DNA from: a virus
DNA length: 64,000 bases
Direction: 5' to 3' (one strand)
IMG/VR virus record: IMGVR_UViG_3300038415_000014
Location: 1 to 64,000 of that record
Shown here: positions 26,615-50,400 of the stretch, one piece after another
How the letters are laid out: every line of letters begins with the position of its first letter
Numbering within the stretch: the first letter of the stretch is position 1
The notes under the pieces: generated by a model
What the model was told of the DNA's origin: nothing
Seen by the model: only the letters and a program-made list of their open reading frames with translations
The model's database searches: none
Position numbers and translations under genes: made by a program

Positions 26615-26628
26615 GAATGAGGCAGAAG

Positions 26629-28395
26629 ATGTCCAAAATTAGAACCCTAATCGCATTAGCTCTCGTAGTTACCGCTTGTGGAAGCAACGACAGCGTAACT
26701 CCAGAGACCGCAAGCACTATTGAGACCACGGGTGGCGAGGCGGGTATCCTCATGACCAGCACTACTCAAGTGGTTGGATCGACGGGCGGTTCATCATCAT
26801 TGATGACGATCACCGGCGGATCCTCATCCAATGTAGCTGGAACCACCTCAGTGATTGGTACAAGCGAGACCGGTGGTTCAGCTCCCCAAGGAACCACCTC
26901 GACTGGCGGCTACAGCTCGACCAGCACGACTAAGCCCATGACTACCGGCGGTCACTCGTCAACAGGTGGATCGAACCCGGGTACTGGTGGAAGTGCTCCG
27001 AAGACGACCGGTGGCAGTCCAGGTACCGGAGGCAGCTCTTCAAAAGCAACAGGTGGATCGAACCCAGGTACTGGTGGAAGCGCTCCGAAGGTAACCGGAG
27101 GTAGCCCCTCAACTGGCGGGTCCTCGACCGTGACGACCACAGGCGGCTCTACTCCTATGGTAACCGGAGGTAGCCCCTCAACTGGTGGTTCCTCATCAGT
27201 GTCGGCAACCGGCGGATCAGCTCCTCAAGCCACGGGCGGTAGCCCCTCAACTGGTGGCAGTCCTTCAACAGGCGGTAGCTCAGCTCAGGCCACTGGTGGT
27301 ACCTCTGCTATCAACCCACCAGTTCCAAATCAGGTTTCGGTTGGATCAACTCAGACTTGTGTAGTTGTGAGCGACGGCCACGTCAAATGCTGGGGCTCGA
27401 ACACCTACGGTCAGCTTGGAAACGGTACAACAACCAGCAGCGCGACCCCTGTCCTAGTCAATGGGATCTCGAATGCAATCAAGGTCTCGACACTCCTCAC
27501 TCATACTTGCGCGGTACTGAATGACGGAACTGTAAATTGCTGGGGTACCAATGCTGATGGTGAGCTTGGAAACGGAAAATCCTCCAACGGTTCTCTGAAC
27601 CCACCCAACCCTAACCCGGTTCAATTCCTTGGTGTTTCGAATGCGGTTGATGTCGTAGTTGGGTCACTCTACACCTGCGTCCTTCTTGCCGATCACACCG
27701 TGAAATGTGTCGGCCTCCGAAGGTTCGGAACCTTGGGTGATGGAATCGATGATACTTCAATCATCTACTCAGTAACCCCAGTTCAGGTGGTAGGCATCAG
27801 CAACGCGATAGCCATAGGAGCCAACCCGAACTACGCTTGCGCCTTATTGAGCGACAAGACCATCAAGTGCTGGGGGCGCCCGCTCAATGGGGAGTTCCCA
27901 ACTGGGTCTAGCGGGTCATCAACCCCAGTAATTATCCCGAACGTTTCGAACGCAATTACACTTTCAGTAGGCAGTTACAACATCTGCTACCTTGTGGGTG
28001 ACGGGACCGCCTACTGCTGGGGAACTCAGAATGGTGCTCAGACTCCAACCGGCAGCTACGGAATGGTAGCTTACCAGCAGATCAGCTTGTTCGGTACCGA
28101 GATAGCAATAGGTTCGACTCATGGTTGCGGGGTCTACAGTAGACCAGCACTCACCCCTGACTCAGTAGCTTTCTGCTGGGGCTCGAATGATTCTGGTCAA
28201 CTAGGTGATGGAACAACGACGACCAGCACTGGCGTAGTGGTCCCTGGGATCACAGATGCAATCGATGTTGAAGTTGGCGCCAATGGATCAACCTGCGCCA
28301 TCCAACGCAGTGGTACCATGAAGTGCTGGGGCAAACTGACGGGTAACTCTGGCTCACCCACTAGCTCAAGCCCAGTCACCCCGGACGGGTTCTGA
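26629..28395 (+). CDS. RCC1-type seven-bladed propeller lipoprotein, the only plus-strand gene
   Basis: 588 residues from ATG 26629. Signal peptide with lipobox VTAC (lipidated Cys17), so the protein is exported and anchored. Residues about 30-230 are a Thr/Gly/Ser linker with many S-T-G-G-S and T-G-G-S units. From about 235 to the end are seven RCC1-like repeats, each with the strand pair T-C-x-[VL]-x(2)-D-G-x-V-K-C-W-G (six CWG and one CVG) and the G-Q-L-G-[ND]-G turn. Each repeat has two cysteines, suggesting one disulphide per blade in a closed propeller. This is a cellular-type surface protein. As a separately promoted gene in the opposite strand it looks like a moron: surface alteration, adhesion, or superinfection exclusion are possible roles. 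Conserved RCC1 histidines for nucleotide exchange are not expected. Confidence 0.9.
   Translation: MSKIRTLIALALVVTACGSNDSVTPETASTIETTGGEAGILMTSTTQVVGSTGGSSSLMTITGGSSSNVAGTTSVIGTSETGGSAPQGTTSTGGYSSTSTTKPMTTGGHSSTGGSNPGTGGSAPKTTGGSPGTGGSSSKATGGSNPGTGGSAPKVTGGSPSTGGSSTVTTTGGSTPMVTGGSPSTGGSSSVSATGGSAPQATGGSPSTGGSPSTGGSSAQATGGTSAINPPVPNQVSVGSTQTCVVVSDGHVKCWGSNTYGQLGNGTTTSSATPVLVNGISNAIKVSTLLTHTCAVLNDGTVNCWGTNADGELGNGKSSNGSLNPPNPNPVQFLGVSNAVDVVVGSLYTCVLLADHTVKCVGLRRFGTLGDGIDDTSIIYSVTPVQVVGISNAIAIGANPNYACALLSDKTIKCWGRPLNGEFPTGSSGSSTPVIIPNVSNAITLSVGSYNICYLVGDGTAYCWGTQNGAQTPTGSYGMVAYQQISLFGTEIAIGSTHGCGVYSRPALTPDSVAFCWGSNDSGQLGDGTTTTSTGVVVPGITDAIDVEVGANGSTCAIQRSGTMKCWGKLTGNSGSPTSSSPVTPDGF
26870..27310 (+). 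repeat. Thr-Gly-Gly-Ser coding repeats
   Basis: Degenerate tandem DNA repeats coding for units such as TGGS-SP-STGGS and TGGSNPGTGGSAPK. Some segments of about 60 bases are nearly identical, for example around 26955-27010 and 27045-27100. These form a flexible linker lifting the propeller from the membrane and are a likely site of length variation by recombination. Confidence 0.8.
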
Positions 28396-41153: not shown

Positions 41154-42002
41154 GGCCCTTCTCTCCCTGAGTCTAAGGATAATCAAAGAACGAGATATGC
41201 CCAACTCCTTTGCTACTTGTTCTTGAGTCTTACTGCTCAGGAGGTCGAGAATTTGATCTGTTGTAACGCGACTTGGCTTTACAGGCGCCAACGGGTTCCC
41301 GAGTCTTCTTGCTAACTCAACCCTTCTATTTACAAGTCTCACAGAAATTCCCAACTCATCAGCAACCTGAGCTCTAGGTATTCCACTATTTATCCTACTT
41401 AGAATGTAGTCAGTTGAAAGGTCGTGTCTGTAATTAGGGTGCTTGGACCCAGCGAATAAATCCTTACGAGATTCGCTCATTCTTTTCCTAGCCTCAAGTG
41501 ACGGGCGAATCCCCTTATGGCATTCGATGTACTTGAGGATAGTCTCTTGAGAGTGCTTGTAACCCTTGAGCTTAGATGGTCTTCCCTTATTGGCTCTAGA
41601 TATCTTGGAGCGAGATTCTGCACTCACTGCATGACCAGTCATCTTAACACGCATTTTTAGCTTAGTCTCAGGTGATACCTTGTACCCACTTCTACCCCCA
41701 CCACCTTCAACGATATTCGTGAGCAAAGCCCCCTGTTCTCTAGATTCTTGAATCAAACGAACCTCAAGTCGATCAAGCTCCTCGCGAGTATAAGCCTCAC
41801 CTAACTGTCGAACACTAGGTTCCAAGTTTAGACTCAGCAAGATCCGTAACCATCGTGTGACGTATCTTGAATCTTTGAGGTTGTGGGGGTTAAGGTGCGC
41901 CTGAAGTCGAACCTTTAGCATTCTGACGGTTTGACCAATATACCTAAGAGCCCCATCTCTCGGGTCGTATAGTCCGTAAACTATGCCGAACCTGTCAGCC
42001 AT
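41145..42002 (-). CDS. GIY-YIG homing endonuclease
   Basis: 285 residues. The N-terminal GIY-YIG domain reads IVYGLYDPRDGALRYIGQT (catalytic Tyr pair and Arg/Glu regions), with LDRLEVRLIQ later. NUMOD3-like repeats follow (SPETKLKMRVKMTGHAVS, then SAESRSKISRANKGRPS, then SQETILKYIECHKG), then two helix-turn-helix units (RAQVADELGISVRLVNRRV and TQEQVAKELGISRSLIILR), a standard modular homing-endonuclease architecture. The ATG overlaps the baseplate J stop (TAATG). The gene sits exactly between baseplate J and the gpI-like gene. Confidence 0.9.
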   Translation of the reverse strand: MADRFGIVYGLYDPRDGALRYIGQTVRMLKVRLQAHLNPHNLKDSRYVTRWLRILLSLNLEPSVRQLGEAYTREELDRLEVRLIQESREQGALLTNIVEGGGGRSGYKVSPETKLKMRVKMTGHAVSAESRSKISRANKGRPSKLKGYKHSQETILKYIECHKGIRPSLEARKRMSESRKDLFAGSKHPNYRHDLSTDYILSRINSGIPRAQVADELGISVRLVNRRVELARRLGNPLAPVKPSRVTTDQILDLLSSKTQEQVAKELGISRSLIILRLRERRANG

Positions 42003-42003
42003 T
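41987..42003. repeat. Direct repeat flanking the GIY-YIG gene, right copy
   Basis: CGAACCTGTCAGCCATT, the first codons of the GIY-YIG gene and the end of the baseplate J gene. It is a near copy of 41137-41153 at the other end of the endonuclease gene. Confidence 0.5.
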
Positions 42004-45000
42004 ACGAAGCCCCTGCTGCTAGTGAGTAAGTAATCGTGAAGTTGCCCAGGGTGATGAACTCGACGCTCGTCGCCGGGATATCATGGGAGCCGGAGTCCCC
42101 ACGGATAACATAGGACACCGTGTAGGTGTGATCTGTTGGCAGATCTTGGATAATCCCGAATCCAGCAATCGAGATGACAACGTGGTTCGCAGTCCTTCTT
42201 AGGAGTTCTGCTTGTTGTGCTGCTGCGGTAGTAAATCCAGCAGCAACCAAGGTCGCTGTGTCCGTGTAGCCATTGATGACAGCTCCGCCGGAGCCAATGA
42301 TGAAGGCTTGATCAGCAGCTAATGCCACGTTAGCAAGAACACTCACCAAGGCCATGGCCTCATCGTCTTGGAAGACCCCCTTGTGCTCCGTAACCAGCCC
42401 GCCACCATCCGTCGTCGGGAAGGCTAAGGGGTTGGTCAGTAGGTAAGCAACGTTGCTCCCATGGTCCAAAGAACTCAGGTGCAAGTAAGCCGACGTGAGA
42501 GCTTCACGAAGCTTCCTGGACCCATCCGCATAGGCCATCCGAGCCAAAGGAACAACTGGGAAGTCAACACCCTGAGACTCATCAATTGCATGGATGACAT
42601 CACCTTGGGCAAGCCCGCGCCCAATGAGCCTCTGATCAGTTTCGAGGCTGGTATTGGTCCTGATATCAGGATCTGCCTTGTCCTTCGTAGCCCCAGGAAG
42701 AAGCTGTACGGTTGTCTCAAGGACAATTGAGTTCTCAATGGACTGCTTGATGACCACATCGGCTGTCGTGTGGCGCTTGCTATTCACCGTCCGTTGAAGC
42801 TGCTGCAGTAGGTCATTGATGACATAGTTGACCGTGAAGTTCTCGTCGTGCGAATAGTCCACAGATACTGTTGCCCCATTGACAATAGCTGAAGTAGAGG
42901 TACGGATGATCTTGGCTGGCGTAGTTGCCCCACCCTCAACAACCTCATAATCCGGAATAGTCGCATCAGGACCGTTGAACTCAATGGTCCTGTCCTCGCT
43001 GAATACTCGGATGCTCTTAGTGTTGATGCCGATGCTCCCGAGAGGCTCAGGTTGAGCACCAATCAAAACATGAGTTTCGTCGTTGACCTGGATACTAGCA
43101 CCAGAAGGGATACCACCAACTTGATTGATAGATAGGTAATCTGTGGAGATTGTGCTCTCCCCTTCGAGCAAAGGATCCGCCGTCTTGTAAAGGTTGTACC
43201 CAAGAGTGCTATTCAAGGCCCCAGATACCTCACCCACTACAGAGACTACTCGTCGTACAGGTTGGAAAGTGAACGTGAACTGGTTGACGCTGCGGAATCG
43301 ATAGTCAGCTGTCACCACATCATCAAAGTTCGTTACTACCTGACCTGGTAAGCTCGCATTGACTTGGAATGTCTGGTAATCCAGGATAGTCACCCCAGTC
43401 AGCAAGTAGTCCAAGCCCTGAGTGACATTCCGTACACCAAAACCAAGAGTGAGGTTATCCAAAATCTCGGTAATGGGTGTAGTTTGCGTGACCCTGCTGT
43501 CTTCTACTCGGAAGATGAGATTGACTGCATCTAGGATGATGCAGCTAATGTTCTGGGCAATGTCATAGGTGAACGCGAATCTCTCGGATACCTGACGTTC
43601 TTGAGTCCCTTGGATCCAGATATCGACTTTGCCACCAATGTGCTTGTGTCGAACCTCGTCGTAGTCACGCATCATCAAGTCGTCGCCGCTCTTGACGATC
43701 TTGGACTTCACAATTCCAACCTGCTCTGCGGACGTAGAGGCATACCCACCAGCAGTCCCCGTATCTACGGAGTACCCAAGCAAGCAACGAGTAGCCAAGT
43801 CCGAGTTACTCTCACGGTCGGACCCAAAAACTGTAGCATCTCGATTGACTACCTGGAAACCAGAGACACCTTGAACATTGGTGATCTGCCCCGCGGGTCT
43901 GTTGCCATCTGAGCCAACCTGCTCTGCGACGATGTCTACTGTGATCTCGTACTGCTTGGTATCGAAGTTGTAGTAGGTGTCCGCGATAGCGGATTGCATC
44001 ACGTATGATCCACCAACTCTGAACCTTACTGAGGGGATACCAAGAGACGAATCAGCACTTGTAGATACAATCGTCCCACTGGGTACGGGCTTATCGAAGG
44101 ATGGCCGAGCTGTAGTGTAGAATACCTCTTGTCCGAAAGCTGGTCGACCTGGCAAGCGGGTCTTATTGATGTTCCCAGCTAGCTTATCAAAGGCGGCATC
44201 AATGAGGCTCTGAACCGCGTCGTTCGTGGTGTACCCAAGAGCAGCCTTGAGCGCTGTCTTGTATGCGCTTCCGTCTACTGGGTCTGATACTCCGTCTCCG
44301 TTAGCATCATCGATCTGAAGAAGAGTCGGAAAGCTCTGAGTCCTATTGACGAAGTCTACTAGGAAGTATATACGCTCAGCTTCTGAGCTAAATGGATCAA
44401 TCGAGACGTCCCTTGTGGTGGACCCAGGAAGGAGGCCTATCTCAGTGTTAACCCGTTGGATGGCGCTGACATAGTCTGTGACCACCTGAAACTGAGTTCG
44501 ACCAGGCAATGAACGGATTGAGGTGTCAATGATTAGAGGTGAACCGAGAACTTCTTGAGAGAAAGCGCTCTCGACCTCTGAACTTGTCAGAGGATCATAG
44601 TACACTCCAGTCACGACGTAGTAGAGCGGATCAGTATCAGCTACCCCAGCCCATTGGTCATCGTTGATGCTGTCCACGCTACCTGATCGAACATGGTCGA
44701 ACTCGATGAACTCAGTTAGAGAGTAATCCTCGAAGCTAGAGGTGAAGCGGATCTTGTTACTGTAGACCGACGTGTTGTAGGTGCTACTCATCTTAGTCGC
44801 AAGGGTGTTTCCAAACTCATCCTTGCTTACTACGTTAACTTGAAGGAACTCGTCACCCGCATCGAAGATAGTCTGGTCTGCTGCAAACTGAGTGGCATTT
44901 TCCTCGAAGATGGTGGACTTTGCAGAGACTGTGGTAGCGTTGATCTTGTAATACCCAGTTGTACCACCCGCTGCTGTCGAGGCGTAAAAGTTGAACCCTA

Positions 45001-45457
45001 CGAAGTTGGTCGGAAGTGGGACTCCAGCGGTACTGAAGCGTTGAACTGGGAGGGCAGACAGGATTCGAACTGACCCCCGAAGTCTCCTCATTCTGATCCC
45101 AGATGGGGTTTCCACCTGAAGGATATCAGACTGACTGATGAGGGTCACAGAAACCGTTGACGGGACACTAACCCCACCCACGATGTCAATGGTGCGAATC
45201 TGGATTGTGTTAGCACCAGGGCTAAGCGCCAACCCATCTGGGTAGCTGCTCAGATTTGGGATAGTGAAGTTTGGGAGGTTGAAGTCAACGAGAGTCGAGT
45301 CCGAGACAAAGGCAGCACCGTTGATCGACACCTGAATGTCAGAGGTTGAGCTATCAACTGTACCTTGAATCACAATCGATTCTTGGTTTGTCGTGAAAAC
45401 AAGGTTCGTAGTGTAACCAGAACCATCCCTGAGCAAGATCTGTGGTGCGGTAGCCAT
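42002..45457 (-). CDS. Baseplate J-like protein
   Basis: 1151 residues. The N-terminal part (1-120) is a beta domain, followed by fibronectin-like beta strands. From about 480 the baseplate J core is recognisable (TSADSSLGIPSVRFRVGG, then GSDGNRPAGQITNVQG, then ATVFGSDRESNSDLATRCLL, with E-S-N-S-D-L-A-x-R). The J family forms the baseplate wedge (T4 gp6/gp47, P2 J). A D-A-N-G-D-G-V-S-D loop near residue 386 looks like a calcium-binding DxNxDG site. The large size suggests extra domains relative to P2 J. It precedes the GIY-YIG gene with a TAATG overlap. Confidence 0.85.
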   Translation of the reverse strand: MATAPQILLRDGSGYTTNLVFTTNQESIVIQGTVDSSTSDIQVSINGAAFVSDSTLVDFNLPNFTIPNLSSYPDGLALSPGANTIQIRTIDIVGGVSVPSTVSVTLISQSDILQVETPSGIRMRRLRGSVRILSALPVQRFSTAGVPLPTNFVGFNFYASTAAGGTTGYYKINATTVSAKSTIFEENATQFAADQTIFDAGDEFLQVNVVSKDEFGNTLATKMSSTYNTSVYSNKIRFTSSFEDYSLTEFIEFDHVRSGSVDSINDDQWAGVADTDPLYYVVTGVYYDPLTSSEVESAFSQEVLGSPLIIDTSIRSLPGRTQFQVVTDYVSAIQRVNTEIGLLPGSTTRDVSIDPFSSEAERIYFLVDFVNRTQSFPTLLQIDDANGDGVSDPVDGSAYKTALKAALGYTTNDAVQSLIDAAFDKLAGNINKTRLPGRPAFGQEVFYTTARPSFDKPVPSGTIVSTSADSSLGIPSVRFRVGGSYVMQSAIADTYYNFDTKQYEITVDIVAEQVGSDGNRPAGQITNVQGVSGFQVVNRDATVFGSDRESNSDLATRCLLGYSVDTGTAGGYASTSAEQVGIVKSKIVKSGDDLMMRDYDEVRHKHIGGKVDIWIQGTQERQVSERFAFTYDIAQNISCIILDAVNLIFRVEDSRVTQTTPITEILDNLTLGFGVRNVTQGLDYLLTGVTILDYQTFQVNASLPGQVVTNFDDVVTADYRFRSVNQFTFTFQPVRRVVSVVGEVSGALNSTLGYNLYKTADPLLEGESTISTDYLSINQVGGIPSGASIQVNDETHVLIGAQPEPLGSIGINTKSIRVFSEDRTIEFNGPDATIPDYEVVEGGATTPAKIIRTSTSAIVNGATVSVDYSHDENFTVNYVINDLLQQLQRTVNSKRHTTADVVIKQSIENSIVLETTVQLLPGATKDKADPDIRTNTSLETDQRLIGRGLAQGDVIHAIDESQGVDFPVVPLARMAYADGSRKLREALTSAYLHLSSLDHGSNVAYLLTNPLAFPTTDGGGLVTEHKGVFQDDEAMALVSVLANVALAADQAFIIGSGGAVINGYTDTATLVAAGFTTAAAQQAELLRRTANHVVISIAGFGIIQDLPTDHTYTVSYVIRGDSGSHDIPATSVEFITLGNFTITYSLAAGAS

Positions 45458-45465
45458 ACTACGCC

Positions 45466-46602
45466 TTATTGAATCAATGAGTAGTTTTGCAAGTTGCTAA
45501 CGATCTCTTGTTGCTGTGTCGCCCCTAGCAGGTTATTTGGGTATGGGAGCCGCAACCCACGTGTCAATTGAATTGGTTTCAGGGATCTATTTGCAACGGT
45601 AACTGTGATGAATAGAACGGTAGGGTCATTCTGACTCTGCTCCAAGGTCACCCCTTGCAGCTGGAATGGGAACTCCTCATCAGAAACAGCTTGACCTACG
45701 GTCTCTTCCTGCTGCTTCTTGATGGATTGCCATCGCCCAAAGGCAGTGTAGATGTCAGATGTGATCCTATTCTGAAGGATTCCGCCTACTACAAGCTTCT
45801 CTCCAATTTGGTCTATGATTCTAGTACCGTACCAAGTATGAAATGAGTTAGTCCCTGCAACAGTGTAGATGATCTTCTGCACCTCTTGGATCAGAAGGAT
45901 CTCATCTCTGACTTGGATTACCTCACCAGTAACCCCATAGACCCAATCGTTTTCTATGCCAAGACCGCCGCACCTACGACACTCCTCACGGATTGTCGTG
46001 TAGTTAACCTCTAGATAGTTGAGATCGGCCCTGAGGGGCTCATCGAATACAATCTGACGAAGTGGGCGATCTGATAGAGTCCCGGGCTTGTTGACTAATG
46101 CCCATCCAGGGAACACGTTCTTGCCACTAAAGTGGCGGTTGACTGGGATTCCAAGTAGAGTAGCGAGGGTACTGACAGAATCAATGAAGACAGTGGCAGT
46201 TGGGCCCAGCAGATTGCTCCGAAAGAGCATCTTGTTGTTGTCAGTATAGAATTGGACCCCATTCACTCTTGTATTGATCAACAAGGCTAGCTGATCTGGT
46301 TGGATCCGATACCCACTTGGGATCCTGACATCTTGCCAAGGATCATTACCAACTTTTAGCCTCAGCCTGTCATTGACCCCAGTAGTGAGGGTGAACGGGC
46401 CTGAGCGAGATCCACCTGACTGCGCGGGAGTTTGAACCCCATAGGACGGGACCTCTGCAACCCCATTGGCTCGAACTATCACCGAGCTGAGGGATGCTAT
46501 CGGCCGCAAAGGGGTGGCTATCTGCCTGTCCCCTTGCATGAGCAGGTATTCCTCAGCTACCAGGTGAGTACACACTTGTTCTAGCTGACGATCATAACTC
46601 AT
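45466..46602 (-). CDS. Baseplate or tail protein with a CxxCGG motif
   Basis: 378 residues. Starts MSYDRQLEQVCTHLVAEEYL, has a beta-rich middle (GPFTLTTGVNDRLRLKVGND) and the motif ECRRCGGLGIENDW near residue 205, a C-x2-C-G-G knuckle. The region after it (QVRDEILLIQEVQKIIYT, then FHTWYGTRIIDQIG) resembles gp25-like or baseplate wedge proteins of large phages, but the assignment is not firm. The ATG overlaps the upstream stop as ATGA. Confidence 0.7.
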   Translation of the reverse strand: MSYDRQLEQVCTHLVAEEYLLMQGDRQIATPLRPIASLSSVIVRANGVAEVPSYGVQTPAQSGGSRSGPFTLTTGVNDRLRLKVGNDPWQDVRIPSGYRIQPDQLALLINTRVNGVQFYTDNNKMLFRSNLLGPTATVFIDSVSTLATLLGIPVNRHFSGKNVFPGWALVNKPGTLSDRPLRQIVFDEPLRADLNYLEVNYTTIREECRRCGGLGIENDWVYGVTGEVIQVRDEILLIQEVQKIIYTVAGTNSFHTWYGTRIIDQIGEKLVVGGILQNRITSDIYTAFGRWQSIKKQQEETVGQAVSDEEFPFQLQGVTLEQSQNDPTVLFITVTVANRSLKPIQLTRGLRLPYPNNLLGATQQQEIVSNLQNYSLIQ

Positions 46603-47348
46603 GAGCTCGACCCTCCACCTGAAGCGGTATACCCATCCGAGCCACGCTCAATCGCTGGACCATCTTGTGGAGCGCGGGTCCCACCCTGGTCGTACGACGA
46701 CATAGGAGCATAAGTGTACTTACCAAATGGGTCTTGCCCCTTGTCATCAGCGATTGCACGGTAACTAGGATCAATGAACAACTGGTTTACCAATGCTATG
46801 AGATTCTCAAGTGAGCCGTCGACATCGACTGACTTTTTGATGGTCTTGAGTTCGTTGATCTCGTCTTGTAGCTGGTCTGAGTAGTCGATCGCTCGTCGAA
46901 TCTTGCGCTCAAGTTTTTCGAGTCTGTCTAGGTTCCCCTCCGTCCAAGACCTCATCGAACGAACCGCATTCCCCGAGTCACCATCGGATAACCCTGGAAG
47001 CGGTAAGGGCTCACCGTTGGAAAGTATCTTAGAGGTAGCTGTCTCGGAACCCTTCAAGTAGTATACTGGCTGATTGAAGGACCTGACTTGAAGATCGTAG
47101 AATGGGTCCCCCCCTAACACTTCATACGCAGCTACCAATTTGCCTATAAAAGTTATGATTCCAGGTGACCCAGTCGATAGAGAGGTAGGCCTACCACCAG
47201 AGTCGTAATCAAATTTAAGGAATCCAATCCTTTGCTGCTCAATAGTGAGATGCTTGATCCTAGAATCAATATAAACAAGCTGGCTTCTAACATAAGCTAC
47301 GAAGCGAGTGAACTGTGACTTGTTAAATGTACCCAAGAAGTCCATCAT
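46599..47348 (-). CDS. Baseplate/tail structural protein
   Basis: Start taken as ATG 47346-47348, just after the stop of the zinc-array endonuclease; the longer frame to 47477 lies in that gene. The product, about 249 residues, begins MMDFLGTFNKSQFTRFVAYV and has a long coiled-coil-like helix (GNLDRLEKLERKIRRAIDYS, then DQLQDEINELKTIKKSVDV). The C-terminus is Gly/Ser-rich. Position between large tail genes indicates a virion role. Confidence 0.65.
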   Translation of the reverse strand: MMDFLGTFNKSQFTRFVAYVRSQLVYIDSRIKHLTIEQQRIGFLKFDYDSGGRPTSLSTGSPGIITFIGKLVAAYEVLGGDPFYDLQVRSFNQPVYYLKGSETATSKILSNGEPLPLPGLSDGDSGNAVRSMRSWTEGNLDRLEKLERKIRRAIDYSDQLQDEINELKTIKKSVDVDGSLENLIALVNQLFIDPSYRAIADDKGQDPFGKYTYAPMSSYDQGGTRAPQDGPAIERGSDGYTASGGGSSS

Positions 47349-47352
47349 GGTT

Positions 47353-48228
47353 CTAGCCAGCCTTCTTCTTGAGGGTATCGGAGTACTTGAGTAAGTAATT
47401 GACTGCTGAATAAAGGAGATCGGTGGAGTCCCTGAACATCCCAATACCCGCATTACACTTACTACACAAGAAACCACGCGGTTCGTTGGTTACATGGTCA
47501 TGGTCGACTACGGCCCCTCCCTGCCCTACTCGAAGGGGTTCACCGCAAATCTCACAAGGCTTTGCATAGTCAATTACGGTACCGTACTTGTTCTTAGATC
47601 TGTAGCAACTTCTGCATAACCCTGAATTACTAACCCTAGGCTTATCAGGGTGACACACTGAAGGTGGTTGCTCCTCAAAGCGCTTTCTACCGTAGCATGA
47701 CTTACAGACCCCAGACCCAATGACATGTTCAGGTTTATTTGGGTGACACTTCGATGGGTTATGCTTACTCTCTTTTTTAGGAAAGCATGAGAAGCAAATA
47801 CCAGAACCGACTATGTACTCAGGCCTACCAGGATGACACTTTGAAGGGCTTCTTGTCATCCTAACTTGTTCTGAGCGGCACGACTTACACAAACCTGAAC
47901 CGACTATGTACTCAGGTTTGTCAGGGTGGCACTTTGATGGGGAGTGCTTACTTATTCGTTGTGAGTCGCAGCAGGACTTGCATAACCCAGAGCCAACCAC
48001 AAATTCAGGCTTATCGGGGTGACACTTTGATGGCGAGTGGGTAGCTACTCTTTTAGAATCATAGCAAGCAGAACACAAACCAGAACCAATCACAATCTCT
48101 GGCTTATCTGGGTGGCACTTAGATGGAGAATGCTTACTTACTAGCAAGGCATGATAGCAAGAATTACACAAGCCACTAGCCTTCTCAGGTCTATCCGGAT
48201 GGCAAGTAGCCTTCTTTTCCGATTTCAT
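47353..48228 (-). CDS. Endonuclease VII-like HNH homing endonuclease with seven tandem zinc modules
   Basis: 291 residues. Residues 9-212 are seven tandem modules of about 30 residues with the pattern C-H-P-x-[KR]-P-x(3-6)-S-G-[LIV]-C-x2-C, followed by a basic linker with H-S-P-S-K. Each module has the likely zinc ligands C, H, C, C. Residues 225-291 form the nuclease domain: C-E-I-C-G, then VVDHDHVTNEPRGFLCSKCN with the catalytic D-H-D-H, as in T4 endonuclease VII-type HNH proteins. The single CHPD-x-P-x-GLC-x2-C module is common upstream of such nucleases; a seven-fold array is unusual and may give long-site recognition. The gene lies between two tail genes with no intron signals. Confidence 0.88.
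   Translation of the reverse strand: MKSEKKATCHPDRPEKASGLCNSCYHALLVSKHSPSKCHPDKPEIVIGSGLCSACYDSKRVATHSPSKCHPDKPEFVVGSGLCKSCCDSQRISKHSPSKCHPDKPEYIVGSGLCKSCRSEQVRMTRSPSKCHPGRPEYIVGSGICFSCFPKKESKHNPSKCHPNKPEHVIGSGVCKSCYGRKRFEEQPPSVCHPDKPRVSNSGLCRSCYRSKNKYGTVIDYAKPCEICGEPLRVGQGGAVVDHDHVTNEPRGFLCSKCNAGIGMFRDSTDLLYSAVNYLLKYSDTLKKKAG
47593..48204 (-). repeat. Seven coding repeats of a C-x-H...C-x2-C zinc module
   Basis: Seven consecutive units of 29-33 codons; units 2 to 4 are the most alike (each opens CHPDKPE and ends near SPSK). Units 5-7 and unit 1 have diverged. The pattern suggests expansion by tandem duplication followed by divergence. Confidence 0.85.
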
Positions 48229-48255: not shown

Positions 48256-50400
48256 TCAAAAGATCAAACTGAAGGCTGACACGAAAGAGCTGACATCAGT
48301 CCCTGCATATGCCAGGGCAACTCCAGCCGAGTACCCACCAGGACCTGAGGGGGGCTTCGTACCTCCAGCACCATCGATGGCTTTGATCCAACCTGGGATA
48401 CCCCCAGTCGTAGTAGGTACATTCAAGAAGTAGAAACCAGCTGTGAAACTATCCAAGAAGTTCAAGATCTCAATCAGGTACTTGATGAATCGTTCCAGGA
48501 CATCAATCTTGCGGGATACTGCATCAATGTAGGCTTTGATCTCGTCGATAGCTGACCTGAAGGCATCGGCGAGAGCATCAATGCGATTGAGTAAGTCATA
48601 GATGAATTGACCACTCCATGGGATGATGTCTCTTAGCAAACTGATGGATACCCAGTCAGGTGGCGTACCACCAAGCGTGAACGACTTGATGAAGTTGACT
48701 GCATCCAATAGATTCAGCCTAACATTCACATTTGTGTAAGCTGCTTCAGTTGTAGCATAGACAGCTGGGTAACAAACCTGGTCACCGGGGAAACCCTCAG
48801 GGATATTGTTGTAGGCCGTTACCATGGCCTCAATGGTTGTGTTGTGGCCATTGAAGTTACCATCTGAGGGGATTGGTCTCGGGATAGCCCCTTGGAACAA
48901 GTCCCGAAGAGGTATCAGCATGGCGCTATTCTCTAGGAGGGAAGATCCAACGGTCTGGGCCAACTGCGCTGATTGAAGCTTCACTGACAGGTAGTTCTGA
49001 GTAACATCCGGATAGTCACCGGTAGTTGGGTCCGCCGAGATGTTCCCTCCAAAGGATAGAGGCTCGATTTGAGATAGGGCGCCACCGATGTTGGTGAGAG
49101 ATCCACAGCCTACCTGGCTCGCGGGGGTACCATTGATGGGGAGCCCATTCTTGTCGAACTGTGAGTCCTTAGCCAACGGCTGTTGAAACCCAAGGGCGAA
49201 AGCCATCCTGAAGGTGTCTTCGAGGACCGTAATCACATCAAAGTCGGGCGGAATATTAGGAAGCCGACAAGTGAGAATTGGACTTGGGCGACCCATGACC
49301 ACAGGGTCGTTTGGGTCAGAGGAGGGCCACCTCTGAATCATCTCTTTGGTAGTGGCATCCACCTCGGGGGCAGGGAAGGTGATTTCATTCTCAGAGTCGA
49401 CATCGAGAGCCCCACTGAAGGCTCGAATGCGGTAGTAGTAGGTTGTGTCCTTGTTGACAGCGCTATCTATGTACCGGAACTTACCGAGTTGAAGCAGGGA
49501 GAATATCGAGGTCGCTGAAGTCGGGTCAAGCACGAAGTACTTCTGGAACTGACGGAAGACGTCCCCTTGCTCGTCCCTTACGACTACTTTGCGACTGATG
49601 GCCTTGCCAGTCTTATCCTCGAAGTTGGTCTGCGAGGTTGTGGTCATCGGGGTTGGACCCCCAGAGAGACTCGTTCTCTCAATGAGCCAACTCTTAGGGA
49701 TCAGTTCACTGGATACACTGGCGACCAAGTCGTTGAAGCCTGGGTCAGGCGGGTACTGATTGGTCGCCAGAGTCCACTCAAGGGCAAACCCCTTCAAAGT
49801 TGCTCCGAAGACTGATGCCACCTGCAGAATCGGGTCAATACTTGGGGTAGCATTGGTCCCGCTAGAAGTCCCGGGCTTGGTCCCCGCCGGAAAGATTCGA
49901 GCATTGGCCGGAGCAACATACTTGGCTGCAGTGATCTCTTTACCGAAGAATCGGAGGAGAATCTTCATCAGGCGCAACAAGGAATAGATGTTCGTAGCAT
50001 CAGCTACAATGAGTACGAACCCACTCTGCATACTCCCCGCGAGAGGCTGAGGTCGATAGGGGTCCTTAGCGTCAAACAGGGAGGCCTTGAAGCGCCCAGT
50101 GAACGCTTGATATCCTCCCTTATAGAGATCGAAGTTTGGGTCCCTCGTCGGATTCGGTATATCGAAGTACCCGTACAACCCTGTCCGCTTCAAGCTCTCG
50201 AATAGCTGCTGAAGGACAGCTAAGAGGGCCGTTACAATAGCTCGGATTGGGTTCCCAAAATCGATGAGGAACAAGCTGATCGTATTGAGAAGAGCCTTGA
50301 TGACCTCCAAGAAGGTAACGAGAACTTCAAGGGTTGAACGAACACTTTCGAGTTCATCCTTACCCGGGATCTTGATTTCTAATGCCTTCCAATCAGACAT
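48256..50400 (-). CDS. Large virion protein with fibronectin-like segment and helical ends
   Basis: 714 residues. The N-terminal 90 residues include hydrophobic helices (RSTLEVLVTFLEVIKALLNT, AIVTALLAVLQQLFESLKR). The middle has a fibronectin-type strand set (YYRIRAFSGALDVDSENE), and the C-terminal part has amphipathic helices (DAFRSAIDEIKAYIDAVSRK) before a Gly-rich end. It probably belongs to the tail or baseplate. The ATG is two bases after the stop of the 52-residue gene. No enzyme motif. Confidence 0.7.
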   Translation of the reverse strand: MSDWKALEIKIPGKDELESVRSTLEVLVTFLEVIKALLNTISLFLIDFGNPIRAIVTALLAVLQQLFESLKRTGLYGYFDIPNPTRDPNFDLYKGGYQAFTGRFKASLFDAKDPYRPQPLAGSMQSGFVLIVADATNIYSLLRLMKILLRFFGKEITAAKYVAPANARIFPAGTKPGTSSGTNATPSIDPILQVASVFGATLKGFALEWTLATNQYPPDPGFNDLVASVSSELIPKSWLIERTSLSGGPTPMTTTSQTNFEDKTGKAISRKVVVRDEQGDVFRQFQKYFVLDPTSATSIFSLLQLGKFRYIDSAVNKDTTYYYRIRAFSGALDVDSENEITFPAPEVDATTKEMIQRWPSSDPNDPVVMGRPSPILTCRLPNIPPDFDVITVLEDTFRMAFALGFQQPLAKDSQFDKNGLPINGTPASQVGCGSLTNIGGALSQIEPLSFGGNISADPTTGDYPDVTQNYLSVKLQSAQLAQTVGSSLLENSAMLIPLRDLFQGAIPRPIPSDGNFNGHNTTIEAMVTAYNNIPEGFPGDQVCYPAVYATTEAAYTNVNVRLNLLDAVNFIKSFTLGGTPPDWVSISLLRDIIPWSGQFIYDLLNRIDALADAFRSAIDEIKAYIDAVSRKIDVLERFIKYLIEILNFLDSFTAGFYFLNVPTTTGGIPGWIKAIDGAGGTKPPSGPGGYSAGVALAYAGTDVSSFVSAFSLIF

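Follow-up and report, generated by a model that had tools for sequence, protein, structure and literature searches.

A probable phage homing endonuclease with seven tandem putative zinc modules between conserved tail-region genes

Why would a phage nuclease carry seven copies of a small cysteine- and histidine-containing module, and what does its gene do at the site where it lies? We address these questions for a 291-aa protein encoded in the window, the whole 64,000-nt stretch of viral DNA that was analysed. The gene is quite probably a free-standing homing endonuclease gene (HEG) of the DHHRN, or F-CphI-like, type, which lies between conserved tail-region genes and uses its array of modules to target DNA. 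How the array would contribute to targeting is a separate matter, on which several readings compete.

The ORF list of the window gives the gene an ATG start and the same limits as the initial annotation, and the encoded protein consists of seven putative zinc modules at the N-terminus followed by a C-terminal EndoVII domain (Table 1). The layout first described, seven modules of about 30 residues ahead of an EndoVII-like domain, is confirmed: the module motif occurs seven times, compared with twice at most (in 2 shuffles) among 20,000 shuffled versions of the array protein, and Endonuclease_7 (PF02945, 3.1e-14) is the only Pfam match. The modules start at residues 9, 38, 69, 100, 131, 161 and 192, giving periods of 29, 31, 31, 31, 30 and 31 aa. 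They follow the consensus C-H-P-x-[K/R]-P-x(4-7)-S-G-[L/I/V]-C-x2-C, after which come ~10 variable residues and, in modules 1-6, a linker resembling x-S-P-S-K. Of the ligands initially proposed, the C-x2-C pair stands, while the C-x-H pair gives way to an adjacent C-H-P. Relatives vary at this point, with C-x-H-P in L023 and C-x2-H-P in L029, and these spacings indicate that the first cysteine shifts while the H-P stays fixed. A histidine adjoining the cysteine would be an unusual ligand geometry, and it counts against the explanation favoured here.

Table 1. Features of the array nuclease gene and its surroundings, in window coordinates
Feature	Coordinates	Strand	Match or sequence
Putative free-standing EndoVII-type (DHHRN) homing endonuclease gene, 291 aa	47353..48228	-	
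Upstream flanking gene, 714 aa, kept in relatives; left border of insertion site	48256..50400	-	
Downstream flanking gene, 249 aa, kept in relatives; right border of insertion site	46599..47348	-	
Baseplate wedge protein	42002..45457	-	phrog_6
Endonuclease VII nuclease domain, residues 222-280	47389..47565	-	PF02945 E=3.1e-14
Predicted zinc module 1, core	48157..48204	-	CHPDRPEKASGLCNSC
Predicted zinc module 2, core	48064..48117	-	CHPDKPEIVIGSGLCSAC
Predicted zinc module 3, core	47971..48024	-	CHPDKPEFVVGSGLCKSC
Predicted zinc module 4, core	47878..47931	-	CHPDKPEYIVGSGLCKSC
Predicted zinc module 5, core	47785..47838	-	CHPGRPEYIVGSGICFSC
Predicted zinc module 6, core	47695..47748	-	CHPNKPEHVIGSGVCKSC
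Predicted zinc module 7, core	47605..47655	-	CHPDKPRVSNSGLCRSC

The nuclease domain is intact, retaining C225, C228, D242, H243, H245, R251, C255, C258 and N259. The closest solved sequence is Hpy99I (3fc3, E=5.6e-7), a restriction enzyme without a CHP array whose match covers the C-terminal domain only; T4 endonuclease VII is matched weakly. The DHHRN family of homing endonucleases, which have an EndoVII motif, was founded on F-CphI of cyanophage S-PM2 (PMC6083498). All residues of this family are present in the array nuclease at the published spacing, with C225/D242/H243/R251/N259 spaced identically to C84/D101/H102/R110/N118 of F-CphI (PMC6083498). Most proteins of the endonuclease clade carry the EndoVII motif at the C-terminus, and most of the resolvase clade at the N-terminus (PMC6083498). 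The motif of the array nuclease, at residues 222-280 of 291, has the endonuclease-type arrangement, and the protein lacks the T5orf172/GIY-YIG nuclease domain of other phage HEGs. The likeness to F-CphI covers the catalytic motif, the residue spacing, the C-terminal position of the motif and a free-standing gene between conserved genes (PMC6083498). F-CphI differs in being 177 aa long, too short for seven modules, and the array nuclease was not seen linked to an intron.

The insertion site was surveyed at 27 loci around relatives of the 249-aa gene, some of them near-duplicates (L057-L083). The 714/249 junction is closed, at 17-79 nt, in 16 of the 27 (L059, L061-L071, L074, L075, L079 and L081); two hold a remnant of the array gene, eight hold other nucleases and one (L078) is ambiguous. 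An optional gene between two conserved genes, with the site empty in relatives, is the arrangement expected of a free-standing HEG. The baseplate wedge protein (phrog_6) encoded nearby places the insertion in the tail/baseplate module. Published work finds phage HEGs next to essential and structural genes (PMC10448857), and the position of this junction fits that placement.

The remnant is a 58-aa ORF, identical in L057 (same contig as L049) and L058, at L049:8154-8330. It begins MKTEKKATCHPSTGAIRGILCSSCNRMIGFAKDSP... and is an in-frame fusion of MKTEKKATCHP to STGAIRGILCSSCN...; its start matches that of the array nuclease (MKSEKKATCHP), and the remainder matches the end of the nuclease domain. 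The ORF is an internally deleted, in-frame form of the array nuclease that has lost the array and the active-site D-H. The fusion point falls at C-H-P codons, which makes it plausible that the deletion ran through a short repeat common to a module and the ancestral D-H-C-H-P motif.

The genes that occupy the junction elsewhere are diverse. In L060 (same contig as L050) the gene encodes a weak HTH-like segment at the N-terminus, one zinc module and an EndoVII domain (PF02945, 9.7e-17), and in L072 and L073 it encodes two HTH-like segments (HTH_23, 5.9e-7), a zinc module and an EndoVII domain (4.7e-19). By sequence, HTH domains take the place of the zinc array in these close relatives. L080 has a gene with GIY-YIG and NUMOD3 domains, tandem HNH proteins are encoded in L082 and L083, and L076 and L077, where the gap is larger, hold GIY-YIG and/or HNH genes. 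With only 21-26% identity of the 714-aa homologue, orthology in L076-L083 is judged from synteny. EndoVII, GIY-YIG or tandem-HNH genes thus occupy one junction in a wide range of large phages, which makes it a recurrent nuclease hotspot, read here as a homing hotspot. Such a site is a natural experiment: EndoVII enzymes with HTH domains or a zinc array, GIY-YIG enzymes and tandem-HNH enzymes share one junction, and target choice by different DNA-binding parts could be directly compared at a single locus. Sliding identity against L049 and L050 showed no peak beside the insertion of the kind that co-conversion would leave. The initial call of a homing endonuclease is well supported by the empty sites, the decayed remnant, the different nucleases at the junction and the family residues at the right spacing.

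The same survey bears on another role for the protein, whose catalytic fold is that of T4 endonuclease VII: it could be the Holliday-junction resolvase of the phage, similar to T4 gp49, with zinc modules added for junction binding. We consider this very improbable. The gene is absent, decayed or replaced at the site in close relatives, which by itself disfavours a resolvase role, and another EndoVII gene lies at 121840-122076 of the phage record. With its EndoVII motif at the C-terminus, the protein differs from most of the resolvase clade, in which the motif is N-terminal, and from the T4 gp49 type, a conserved phage gene with an N-terminal motif.

If the protein is a homing endonuclease, its C-terminal beta-beta-alpha-metal domain would cut the DNA of co-infecting relatives that are without the gene, at or near the 714/249 junction or within a flanking gene. 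Repair from the carrier would then copy the gene across, a form of intronless homing. Each module is predicted to form a small zinc site from a C-H-P loop and a C-x2-C that starts a helix, and the seven modules, with their conserved xSPSK linker, would most likely lie along the DNA, giving affinity and target choice. The HTH domains of the site-mate nucleases probably play the same role. The sequences show the domain layout, the intact active-site residues, the optional presence and decay of the gene, the hotspot and the HTH domains in the place of the array; zinc binding and DNA binding by the modules, like cleavage and gene conversion, are what we infer.

An AlphaFold2 model of modules 2-3, built with ten related module pairs, has a pLDDT of 86.6 and a single helix per module, beginning at C-x2-C. 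The full-length prediction is poor, with low confidence (mean pLDDT 54.7). A search of the PDB with the two-module fold returned chance-level matches only (best E=8.4, ribosomal S14). Among Pfam and NCBIfam families none covers the module: only weak GATA, A20 and RING-like matches were obtained, the array has no zf-C2H2 match, and it has no Pfam match to CapR/DUF723/DUF4379-type families. As the module has no counterpart among solved structures or in Pfam and NCBIfam, DNA binding by it is proposed by analogy.

Membership of no characterised family also leaves room for modules that bind protein or RNA, for example in regulation or in protecting the phage's own DNA, instead of target DNA. This seems to us very unlikely. 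In the collected loci the modules are almost only attached to nucleases; phrog_20467, a PHROG annotated as HNH endonuclease, matches 7 of the 11 module pairs, up to 6e-6; and HTH domains hold the equivalent position in the site-mates.

Assuming that the modules contact DNA, do they read it? In the predicted-helix columns (positions 16 and 19-26) 83% of module pairs differ, compared with 32% elsewhere, and 0 of 20,000 permutations were as extreme. A fixed scaffold and linker combined with variable helices fits modular DNA recognition; the variability may also have other causes, as surface helices may drift. The modules are not classical C2H2 fingers (C-x2-4-C-x12-H-x3-5-H), their ligands being C-H...C-x2-C, although they may still work like a classical C2H2 array. 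We assign a low probability to the tentative suggestion that the array represents a new class of zinc modules and serves as a natural, modular reader of DNA, the variable helix of each unit contacting a few bases. If true, the enzyme would be a phage's equivalent of an engineered zinc-finger nuclease, and its specificity would change as modules are gained, lost or exchanged. More generally, modules that read DNA would form an uncharacterised class of ~30-aa zinc units working in tandem, and a possible programmable reader besides C2H2 fingers and TAL repeats.

A homing endonuclease could instead use its array as a ruler or non-specific DNA clamp that sets distance and affinity, while specificity, as in Hpy99I, comes from the nuclease domain, perhaps with the help of one module. 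The zinc finger of I-TevI acts mainly as a distance determinant for cutting (PMC2988022), which makes this a real rival, albeit one that we think rather unlikely. Specific DNA binding by F-CphI depends in part on residues in its active-site region (PMC6083498), the computed charge of the array is strongly basic (net +20, pI 9.2), and most of the collected EndoVII relatives manage with 0-1 modules. One would not, however, expect a mere spacer to retain seven zinc sites and a linker as its helices diverge, though drift may occur in any helix on the surface.

The age of the repeats can be judged from their synonymous sites. Between modules, pS is 0.56-0.99 by Nei-Gojobori counts, with many pairs past correction, and dN is below dS in every pair with a finite estimate. 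Near-saturated synonymous positions together with dN<dS indicate that the array is old and has been maintained as protein sequence. The recent duplication of repeats 2-4 that was initially proposed is contradicted by this divergence, pS being 0.72 for modules 2 and 3, 0.79 for 2 and 4, and 0.91 for 3 and 4.

Related arrays are short wherever they were found. DNA patterns for two adjacent modules, with both His codons, were run over 2.9 million viral contigs and matched 28 distinct loci. On inspection nine of these proved to be real arrays of the nuclease type, none with more than two or three modules side by side; the matches L021 and L025 are low-complexity ORFs. A scan allowing longer linkers added one array, L147, with two modules. 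Among 66 distinct EndoVII-type cores, a crude count from a biased sample in which the regular expression misses some arrays (e.g. L034, three modules), 24 have no module, 31 have one, eight have two and two have three; only the array nuclease of the window has more than three. In no other phage sequence examined was a seven-module string found before an EndoVII-type nuclease. The pattern scan of genome contigs gave five matches, all in Haloparvum sedimenti and none an array nuclease, and a tblastn comparison of isolated phages with the array by itself gave one chance-level match (E=1), in a search whose low-complexity filter probably masked the array.

In cultured phages a related C-x4-C...C-x2-[H/C] module does occur in short arrays, such as the three copies in Gordonia phage Yvonnetastic gp162. 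EndoVII nucleases with one to three modules (Dulcita gp78, Yvonnetastic gp162, L034, L043, L023, L029 and L147) share a homologous module and the same nuclease domain with the array nuclease, and differ in having three modules at most versus seven. Tandem zinc fingers on phage HEGs are already known from another nuclease fold. HEGs of the T5orf172 (GIY-YIG) type have repeated zinc fingers of the CapR/DUF723/DUF4379 types, one in phage Helene has six repeats, and deletions through repeats occur in such HEGs (PMC10448857). They resemble the array nuclease in joining tandem zinc-finger repeats to a phage homing nuclease; the array nuclease differs in nuclease fold, in number and in module type, CapR being CxxC...CxC versus C-H-P...C-x2-C. 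The view that such arrays are unusual therefore holds within the EndoVII-type family, where seven modules are seen only here in a biased sample of 66 cores; for phage HEGs at large, tandem zinc fingers have been described before (T5orf172, PMC10448857).

CHP modules also occur in three copies, two of them adjacent, on a different HNH-type domain in L037, L044, L047 and L024. This domain, L...EHxNGxG...LLCWNCN, is clear in L037, L044 and L047, and its association with CHP modules suggests that the modules travel between nuclease types.

Several other genes of the phage deserve mention. An RCC1-like repeat protein, whose PHROG matches are regulator of chromosome condensation, is encoded at window positions 26617-28395 (+); nearly all the other large genes in the window run the opposite way. 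The second EndoVII-type gene of the record (L085, G000:C1:121840-122076) encodes 159 aa with one zinc module and sits between 359-aa and 249-aa ORFs. At a further locus of the same phage (L086, G000:C1:155059-158229), a 229-aa ORF that by eye resembles the C-terminus of ribonucleotide reductase precedes a probable nuclease of 170 aa and then a 113-aa HNH ORF; the latter two are likely further homing endonucleases of this phage.
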